Of a stretch of DNA of 64,000 nt, positions 38,391 through 39,796 are shown piece after piece (positions within the stretch are counted from its first letter, which is position 1; each line of letters starts with the position of its first letter). The notes beneath the pieces are model-generated. The model was not told where the DNA came from, made no database searches, and was given only the letters and a program-made list of their open reading frames with translations. The position numbers and the translations under genes are program-made. The DNA comes from Pseudomonas sp. Os17 (lineage in GTDB: Bacteria; Pseudomonadota; Gammaproteobacteria; Pseudomonadales; Pseudomonadaceae): positions 3,475,501 through 3,539,500 of the forward strand of contig NZ_AP014627.1 of assembly GCF_001547895.1 (NCBI RefSeq), written 5' to 3'.

Positions 38391-38457
38391 GCCGGCGCAC
38401 AGGCCGCAACGACGGGGGCCGCTCAGACGGGCGTCTGCGCTGGCAAGCCAGCGGCTA
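38391..38457. repeat. Degenerate REP doublet
   Basis: CTTCCGCTTGCCGGCGCAC at 38393 and GCGCTGGCAAGCCAGCGG ending near 38453 are diverged REP cores in inverted orientation. The right arm reaches the stop codon of the leftward threonine dehydratase gene. Confidence 0.6.
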
Positions 38458-39495
38458 GGCCGGAATGCTGCTCAAGGCGGCGCGTTCGGCGACGTGGCGC
38501 AGGCTGTCGAAATTGATGTTGGCGCCGGAGTCGATGGCCACCAGGGTCTGGCCGCTGATGCCGCCCTGGGCCACGTACTGCTTGATCCCGGCCACCGCCA
38601 GCGCGCCGGACGGCTCGGTGATCGAGCGGGTGTCGTCGTAGATGTCCTTGATGGCGGCGCACAGCTGGTCGTTGCTGACGCTGATCACCTGGTCCACGTG
38701 ATGCCGGCAGATCTGAAAACCGTGCTCGCCGATCTGCGCAACCGCGACGCCGTCGGCAAAGGTGCCCACCGTGGGCAAGACCACCCGCTCCCCCGCCGCC
38801 AATGCCTGCTGCAGGCAGTTGGAATGTTCTGACTCAACGCCCACGATGCGGATCTGTGGCTGCAGGTACTTGACGTAGGCGGCGATCCCGGCGATCAACC
38901 CGCCTCCGCCCACCGGGACGAAGATCGCATCCAGCGGCCCCGGGTGCTGGCGCAGGATCTCCATGGCCACGGTGCCCTGCCCGGCAATCACATGGGGGTC
39001 GTCAAAGGGCGAGACGAAGGTGCTCCCGGTGTGCTGGGCCAGGCTCAGGGCGTGGGCCAGGGCAAAGGGAAAACTCTCGCCATGCAGAATCGCCTCGGCG
39101 TCGCGGCTGCGCACTCCCAGCACCTTGAGTTCCGGGGTGCTGGCGGGCATCACGATGGTCGCCTTGATCCCCAGCTCCCGAGCGGCCAGGGCCACGCCCT
39201 GGGCATGATTGCCGGCGGACGCGGTGATCACCCCCCGCCGCTTCTGCTCCGGGGTGAGTTGCGCCAGGCGGTTGTAGGCACCACGGATCTTGAAGGAAAA
39301 GGTCGGCTGCAGGTCCTCGCGCTTGAGCAGGATCTGATTGCCCAGCCGCTGCGACAGCGCGGGGGCGGCCTGCAGCGGCGTGCAGATCGCCAGGTCGTAC
39401 ACCGGTGCGGCGAGGATCATCTTCACGTAGCGCTCCAGCAAGGCCATGTCGGCGCTGGGCAAAGGGGTACTGGCAAGACGGCTGGGGTGATTCAC
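38455..39495 (-). CDS. ilvA: Threonine ammonia-lyase (threonine dehydratase), short form
   Basis: PLP enzyme converting threonine to 2-oxobutyrate. The PLP lysine is in FSFKIRGAYN (near residue 70), the asparagine in SAGNHAQGVA and the phosphate-binding glycine loop in PVGGGGLIAGI. At 346 residues it lacks the C-terminal ACT-like regulatory domains of the biosynthetic IlvA, like the second Pseudomonas copy (IlvA2), so it should not be feedback-inhibited in the usual way. The GTG start at 39495 has AGGAG seven bases upstream. Transcription appears to be controlled by an attenuator in the leader. A serine or threo-hydroxyaspartate dehydratase role cannot be excluded. Confidence 0.85.
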   Translation of the reverse strand: MNHPSRLASTPLPSADMALLERYVKMILAAPVYDLAICTPLQAAPALSQRLGNQILLKREDLQPTFSFKIRGAYNRLAQLTPEQKRRGVITASAGNHAQGVALAARELGIKATIVMPASTPELKVLGVRSRDAEAILHGESFPFALAHALSLAQHTGSTFVSPFDDPHVIAGQGTVAMEILRQHPGPLDAIFVPVGGGGLIAGIAAYVKYLQPQIRIVGVESEHSNCLQQALAAGERVVLPTVGTFADGVAVAQIGEHGFQICRHHVDQVISVSNDQLCAAIKDIYDDTRSITEPSGALAVAGIKQYVAQGGISGQTLVAIDSGANINFDSLRHVAERAALSSIPA

Positions 39496-39537
39496 GAGGG
39501 TGCTCCTGGCTGTGTTCGGAGCCCGGGAGACAGAGAG

Positions 39538-39562
39538 AAAAAACCCGCCTCCAGGGCGGGTT
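39538..39562 (-). terminator. Attenuator terminator upstream of the threonine dehydratase gene
   Basis: On the minus strand, AACCCGCC (39562-39555), loop CTGGA, GGCGGGTT (39549-39542), then a run of six T ending at 39538. It lies 43 bases before the GTG start and after the leader peptide stop. CCCGCC of its left arm can instead pair with GGCGGG at 39587-39582, which would abolish it. Confidence 0.72.
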
Positions 39563-39573
39563 GGGTGCAGTCG

Positions 39574-39642
39574 TCAGCAAGCCCGCCAATCAGGAATGGC
39601 GGTAATAATGCTTGGCTGGGAACGATAGGCAGAAAAAGTCAT
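39574..39642 (-). CDS. Leader peptide, 22 residues, with Ile-Ile-Thr-Ala-Ile codons
   Basis: ATG at 39642 opens a 22-codon frame ending TGA at 39574; residues 9-16 read QPSIITAI. The ATT-ATT-ACC codons (39609-39601) directly abut and cover segment ACCGCCA (39603-39597), which pairs with TGGCGG (39588-39583); that segment can also pair with CCCGCC of the terminator. This is the four-segment layout of amino-acid biosynthetic attenuators: stalling at Ile/Thr codons frees segment 2 to sequester segment 3. No strong ribosome site is seen; the start may be leaderless given the promoter position. Confidence 0.6.
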   Translation of the reverse strand: MTFSAYRSQPSIITAIPDWRAC

Positions 39643-39650
39643 GGACCGGA

Positions 39651-39679
39651 AACTAACCGCGCCGGCCCCTGGCGGTCAA
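39651..39679 (-). promoter_or_regulatory. Candidate promoter of the leader-ilvA transcript
   Basis: Minus strand TTGACC (39679-39674), a 17-bp spacer and TTAGTT (39656-39651). The -10 match is weak. It would place the transcript start within a few bases of the leader-peptide ATG at 39642. Confidence 0.4.
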
Positions 39680-39733
39680 TGCTTTTCTCCGAGACTGACA
39701 CCCAACACCACAGCTCCTGCTCCCTCCTGCTCA

Positions 39734-39796
39734 CCGCTTACCGCTTACCGCTTACCGCTTGCAGCTTGCAGCTTGCAGCTTGCAGCTTGCAGCTGA
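39734..39796. repeat. Tandem 7-bp repeat of two blended types
   Basis: Four copies of ACCGCTT (39734-39761) followed in phase by four copies of GCAGCTT and one GCAGCTG (39762-39796), nine 7-mers in all. It lies just upstream of the ParD-like/map operon and its putative operator. Heptamers of the GCAGCTT/AAGCTGC sort are frequent between Pseudomonas genes. Confidence 0.9.

Follow-up and report, generated by a model that had tools for sequence, protein, structure and literature searches.

The window analyzed here is a 64,000 nt stretch of the Pseudomonas sp. Os17 genome. On its minus strand lies a gene for a short threonine ammonia-lyase (ilvA2), whose product has PALP as its only Pfam domain, and upstream of this gene are a short open reading frame, a series of complementary segments, and a run of T residues. 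The preliminary description had taken these as the parts of an attenuator, and when the sequence was reread, the leader frame, segments 1 to 4, and the terminator were all found in place. Features are listed in the order of transcription:

39679-39674, minus strand: -35-like box TTGACC of a putative promoter, recognized solely through the class A consensus TTGACT (classes are described below)
39655-39650, minus strand: -10-like box TAGTTT (class A consensus TAATTT), ending 7 nt upstream of the leader ATG
39642..39574, minus strand: leader frame MTFSAYRSQPSIITAIPDWRAC, 22 codons plus stop, without a visible ribosome-binding site
39642-39640, minus strand: leader ATG
39612..39540, minus strand: match to Rfam RF00624 (P9), by the Rfam covariance model
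39609-39604, minus strand: Ile pair ATT ATT, the proposed stall site, from masking folds and the leader tally
39603-39597, minus strand: segment 1, ACCGCCA, from folding and comparative pairing
39588-39582, minus strand: segment 2, TGGCGGG, partner of segment 1 or 3
39576-39574, minus strand: leader stop TGA
39562-39555, minus strand: segment 3, AACCCGCC, partner of segment 2 (antiterminator) or 4 (terminator)
39549-39542, minus strand: segment 4, GGCGGGTT, intrinsic terminator with a T tail, six T in all
39507-39503, minus strand: AGGAG before the ilvA2 GTG
38455..39495, minus strand: short threonine ammonia-lyase gene (ilvA2), 346 aa, GTG start, the putative controlled gene

The end of the terminator stem is 46 nt from the ilvA2 GTG. 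Predicted hairpin energies are -11.5 kcal/mol for 1:2, -13.2 for 2:3, and -13.6 for 3:4, and the 73-nt P9 stretch folds with a z score of -2.92, equaled by 2 of 200 shuffles. Upstream of the promoter, at ~39733-39793 on the minus strand, short tandem repeats of GCTGCAA and then of GCGGTAA can be made out by eye.

The RNA itself was already known. RF00624, “Pseudomonas sRNA P9”, is the sole Rfam match over threshold in the whole window, scoring 83.5 bits where the gathering score is 43 (model positions 1-74). It is the same RNA, but Rfam types P9 as an sRNA gene, and the match begins downstream of the leader ATG, omitting the promoter and the first part of the frame. P9 reportedly stems from a 2006 sRNA paper by Livny, and the Rfam text presumably already mentions the downstream threonine dehydratase gene. 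P9 is therefore known as an object, and what is new is its interpretation as an attenuator, by a mechanism that is the classical one and not a new kind. No description of a Pseudomonas ilvA attenuator or of a P9 mechanism was found in the literature searched, whose coverage takes in few subscription papers. The available portions of the main text of PMC8297930 name neither ilvA nor threonine dehydratase (the 282 genes with early 3' ends are listed in its supplement); ilvA, PA1326, and PA0331 are absent from those of PMC3460626; and PMC5542712, as far as its available text goes, has ilvA2 among the putative targets of a different sRNA, SrbA.

Within the genus Pseudomonas, RF00624 was matched in 298 of 398 genomes (289 over cut-off), and in 0 of 14 control genomes; at laxer thresholds 5 of the 14 controls match at E up to 1 and one at 0.05, none of them over the cut-off. 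Two further models were used: R1, built here, and R2, a wider one. Because real and chance matches overlap at ~30-38 bits, weak matches were judged singly by eye; 16 of 40 weak-match regions were taken as non-elements, and the rest, L105 included, were accepted as real. R1 matches 27 of 40 evenly sampled genus genomes, each with one strong element. The same sample yielded one element at a kinase gene (G271) and three weak rows, two of them ordinary terminators by eye and the third (G061) left out. Across the order, R1 matches 43 of 390 genomes, including four from the genus; 40 of the 47 rows were judged real (six in the genus) and 7 to be ordinary terminators. Across the class, R2 gave 27 rows in 21 of 369 genomes. 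Besides two in the window's own genome, 5 of the 21 loci read are real, in four genomes; the other 16 are non-elements by eye, and L197 and L204-L206 were left out. Fifteen non-Pseudomonas matches of a 17-mer, among the matches listed, have no terminator by eye.

Behind the strong element in the even sample, ilvA was found in 27 of 27 genomes: 17 short, 8 long, and 2 in stretches too short to tell. Leaders of class A (MTFTVLRSQPSIITAIPYLAG-like) precede short ilvA2 genes, and those of class B (MNVTKHFFGQIIITAIPVMAG-like) precede long ilvA genes. The link originally drawn to short ilvA2 alone was too narrow, since the element also precedes long ilvA and, elsewhere, other genes. In the window's genome it sits at the short ilvA; the long ilvA there shows no element in the 420 nt upstream.

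Conservation of the leader frame across Pseudomonas, on which the proposal of an attenuator depended, was checked by comparison, and the in-frame ATG is kept. In 172 distinct elements, the stretch from 45 to 18 nt before the Ile pair contains 175 ATG triplets in frame and 16 out of frame, related genomes being counted as they stand, so that the counts are not independent by descent. An open in-frame ATG lies 24-39 nt before the pair in 169 of these, at a spacing of 33 nt (129 elements), 30 (16), 36 (14), 24 (six), 39 (three), or 27 (one). All of these distances are multiples of a codon, so that insertions and deletions are of whole codons. As to the other three, L155 and L184 have an in-frame ATG farther upstream, and L156 has GTG. 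The best 30 loci, all 30 of them, have an in-frame ATG 36 nt before ATTACC, with TTGAC within 45 nt upstream. Since the R1 and R2 alignments start at or near the Ile codons, the way in which the loci were found has little bearing on the start codon. In class A, pN/pS is 0.58 in frame vs. 0.98 and 0.82 in the shifted frames (49 sequences); in class B the ratio does not discriminate, at 0.66 in frame vs. 0.53 and 1.39 (22 sequences).

The set of 172 leaves out the judged non-elements, L197, L204-L206, the weak L035, and the duplicates L031, L137, and L201. It also lacks L105 and L138, though these are real, and six loci missed by the recognition script, all of them element-like (L056, L079, L161, L170, L180, and L181). 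At L056 (G007:C18:100544-100695), two neighboring RF00624 matches are separated by an assembly run of N.

The class A promoter consensus is TTGACT-N17-TAATTT, followed by 6 nt to the ATG; the window's boxes have an 18-nt spacer and a gap of 7 nt. A promoter scan of the window returned no sigma-70 site over threshold. Among the 129 members with 33-nt spacing, TTGAC occurs no more than 42 nt upstream of the ATG in 108. This comparative consensus would put the transcription start at the leader ATG or within ~1 nt of it, in agreement with the start first predicted, and would explain the missing ribosome site. The leader message is probably leaderless, as in Sinorhizobium meliloti trpL, which is the nearest precedent found for such a start: according to the available portions of PMC7298713, its transcript starts with the ATG of a 14-aa leader frame, and the terminated form is a known sRNA. 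S. meliloti trpL (rnTrpL) is alphaproteobacterial and reads Trp, whereas the P9 element would read Ile; the likeness is one of architecture.

The alternative pairings first proposed are conserved across relatives, with 94-100% of cells paired and covariation for 1:2 and 3:4. By stem, paired cells amount to 96.5% (1:2), 97.8% (3:4), and 100% (2:3) in 52 sequences from the genus, and to 94.3, 99.1, and 99.2%, respectively, in 44 from the order, 15 of which are from the genus; controls in which the partner was slid gave 22-76% in the two sets. In the genus set, 1:2 shows compensatory changes, and over the whole structure 31 cells are changed on both sides, with 9.3 expected and 0 of 500 shuffles reaching this number; for 1:2 and 3:4, two of five measures fall within the shuffles (351 and 160 of 500). 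The most variable 2:3 pair is UG, CG, or UA, standard throughout. There are no double changes in 2:3, and shuffles equal it in 500 of 500 cases (genus) and 127 of 500 (order), so this pairing shows conservation but not covariation.

A cis position, alternative structures, and a terminator might also belong to a riboswitch, with isoleucine, threonine, or 2-oxobutanoate as its direct ligand and no need of translation. What looks conserved in the alignments, however, is three short, mutually exclusive stems with loops variable in both length and sequence; the reading frame is kept as well, and no riboswitch family was matched by Rfam at this element. A riboswitch is the most improbable of the alternatives considered.

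The effect of a ribosome at successive leader codons was modeled for 168 of the 169 leaders by masking 28 nt around it and folding the transcript to segment 3. Stem 2:3 forms in 5 of the 168 without a ribosome and in 0 with a ribosome at the stop; one citramalate synthase element forms it without a ribosome. The number of leaders that form 2:3 is 160 when the A site holds the codon just ahead of the first Ile codon, 158 when it holds the first Ile codon, and 155 when it holds the second; it is 141 and 129 at the next two codons, drops to 16 four codons past the first Ile, and is 0 farther on. For stalls upstream, 2:3 forms in 70 of 168 when the distance to the pair is two codons and in roughly a third when it is three to seven codons; in both ileS elements, 2:3 formation with upstream stalls extends nearly to the start. 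In the window, 2:3 forms only with S10, I11, I12, T13, or A14 in the A site, the ATG being codon 0. In an equilibrium fold that includes segment 4, the terminator forms even under a stalled ribosome. With 2:3 and 3:4 nearly equal in predicted energy (-13.2 and -13.6 kcal/mol), order of synthesis must decide between them, as it does in known attenuators, and antitermination would need this usual kinetic order.

The proposed switch would work as follows. The leader message would be leaderless and translated as such. With charged tRNA-Ile in short supply, a ribosome would wait at ATT ATT (39609-39604) and cover segment 1; segments 2 and 3 would then pair, no terminator would form, and ilvA2 would be transcribed, as conservation and folding suggest. 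When isoleucine is plentiful, the ribosome would reach the stop and cover segment 2, allowing 3:4 to terminate transcription, and the short RNA released would be “sRNA P9”. In the absence of a ribosome, 1:2 would form, likewise leading to termination. Since 2-oxobutanoate, a committed isoleucine precursor, is made by IlvA, the switch would close a feedback loop on isoleucine supply.

The signal had first been read as isoleucine and threonine together. The isoleucine part of this stands and the threonine part does not: Thr comes next after the Ile pair in 134 of 169 leaders, and the 35 in which it does not, among them both ileS leaders in the tally (FIIQH) and the single citramalate synthase leader there (IIIRL), rule it out as a co-signal. 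No gene specific to threonine supply was met behind any element found. The pair is II in 163 of the 169 leaders and IM or MI in six, a proportion that is partly by selection, as two adjacent Ile/Met-type codons were required in recognizing loci; L161, missed by the script, reads R-I-T-I-T-P by eye. Independent evidence for isoleucine comes from the downstream genes, since ilvA, citramalate synthase (another route to 2-oxobutanoate), and ileS all concern this amino acid. Leader Ile codons, with all hosts pooled, are ATT (498), ATC (80), and ATA (20); five window ORFs, taken for comparison, have ATC (79), ATT (11), and ATA (1). By these comparisons the predicted signal is isoleucine rather than threonine.

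Stalling could conceivably be brought about by the nascent leader peptide, as in an arrest peptide, and not by uncharged tRNA-Ile. The peptide around IIT is indeed conserved within each ilvA class, but between classes little except the Ile pair is shared, which fits codon reading better, and an arrest peptide seems very unlikely.

Weaker Rfam matches pointed to elements of like anatomy in front of other genes. Genes behind the element, where they fell outside the domain scans, were identified by eye or by motif. Class C elements precede an AAA_33 P-loop kinase in Pseudomonas (13 loci in the leader tally); one of these, with the leader MNRNLWQRRTEIITTCISQVG, is a second putative attenuator copy in the window's genome (L032, G000:C1:3931711-3931789). 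Class D elements (12 loci, of which 8 belong to the genus) precede a SnoaL/DUF4440-like protein related to Bacillus subtilis YybH (PDB 2gxf). At one class D locus, L079, there is no intact SnoaL gene directly downstream, and the next long frame is transposase-like by eye, as of an insertion sequence. In the order outside the genus, elements precede threonine dehydratases, SnoaL-like proteins, and FlaR-like small P-loop kinases, the last with 15 leaders tallied, 9 of them ending RIIIIP. The five real R2 loci precede SnoaL-like proteins (three), a FlaR-like kinase, and a GNAT acetyltransferase.

An (R)-citramalate synthase gene is found behind L162 and L170, and isoleucyl-tRNA synthetase behind L175, L176, and L180 (genomes G636, G655, and G674, of one genus); the citramalate synthase elements are in two of these three genomes. 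In each of the three, a single IleRS match exceeds the cut-off, and its gene comes directly after the element. The 492 residues available at L175 score 565 bits with TIGR00392 ileS (full-length cut-off 621), and the 488 at L162 score 614 bits with the Leptospira citramalate synthase model (cut-off 950). MupA and MupB scores for the partial L175 protein are well below that for ileS and far below their cut-offs, and carry no implication for resistance.

These neighbors bear on the possibility that P9 acts in trans, as a small RNA that carries a terminator of its own, and that the frame is accidental. Rfam's filing would agree with this, termination would yield a short RNA, and action in trans is on record for rnTrpL, the RNA of the S. 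meliloti trp attenuator (PMC7298713, available portions). The position of the element before ilvA, ileS, and citramalate synthase argues against it, however, as does the joint preservation of the 2:3 pairing, the Ile pair, and the frame with its start codon, and as an alternative to attenuation it is unlikely. A trans role in addition to attenuation is possible.

We therefore read the P9 element as an isoleucine-specific, ribosome-mediated transcription attenuator, with a probability of roughly 0.93. The ribosome-stalling mechanism put forward in the preliminary description gains support by comparison, from the frame, the Ile pair, the three exclusive stems and their folds, the terminator, and the gene context; from these we infer leaderless translation, stalling on uncharged tRNA-Ile, and read-through upon starvation.

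Enterobacterial ilvGMEDA, ilvBN, and thr leaders have longer runs of Ile, Val, Leu, or Thr codons and a ribosome-binding site. The P9 element is like them in its end-product codons in a leader peptide, its segments 1-4, and its intrinsic terminator, but unlike them it makes do with two or three Ile codons and probably lacks a 5' leader. A further form of control is the T-box, which binds tRNA directly. The P9 element would share cis RNA control with actinobacterial ilvB and ileS, but would respond to Ile alone, by way of a frame and alternative stems. In Actinobacteria, leader peptides are found upstream of ilvB and T-boxes upstream of ileS; codons for Ile, Val, and Leu occur in the ilvB leaders, and altering codons there is cited as having no effect in Streptomyces coelicolor (PMC1262725, available portions).

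If the attenuator reading is correct, the orphan Rfam family P9 gains a mechanism, Pseudomonas and its relatives an Ile-specific attenuator family, and the attenuators a probable leaderless leader. The element would also mark genes switched on when isoleucyl-tRNA runs short, and two kinase families and a SnoaL-like family would become testable. A more speculative and, on balance, doubtful extension is a Gammaproteobacteria-wide regulon that responds to the charging of Ile-tRNA. Its less familiar members (AAA_33 and FlaR-like P-loop kinases, SnoaL/YybH-like proteins, and the GNAT enzyme) might safeguard the supply or the charging of isoleucine, for example against natural IleRS inhibitors, or might contribute to the Thr-Ile pathway as an alternative homoserine kinase. 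The GNAT protein has one NCBIfam match at E up to 1e-5, to the GNAT domain that some IleRS carry as a fusion (E 1.1e-17, 63 of 1999 bits); Pfam sees a general GNAT domain. For the AAA_33 kinase of the window's genome, the best NCBIfam match is a Desulfovibrio homoserine kinase (E 3.9e-6, 26.8 of 197 bits), and for a second AAA_33 kinase the homoserine kinase match reaches only E 0.0024.

At 21 of 24 class B loci (L001-L015, L026-L028, L039, L040, and L046), a second small frame of 25-43 codons lies between the terminator and ilvA, starting MI in 20 of the 21. In L004 and L005, where the two were compared, the stop of this frame and the ilvA start overlap in an ATGA, which suggests translational coupling, perhaps as a second Ile-dependent control.
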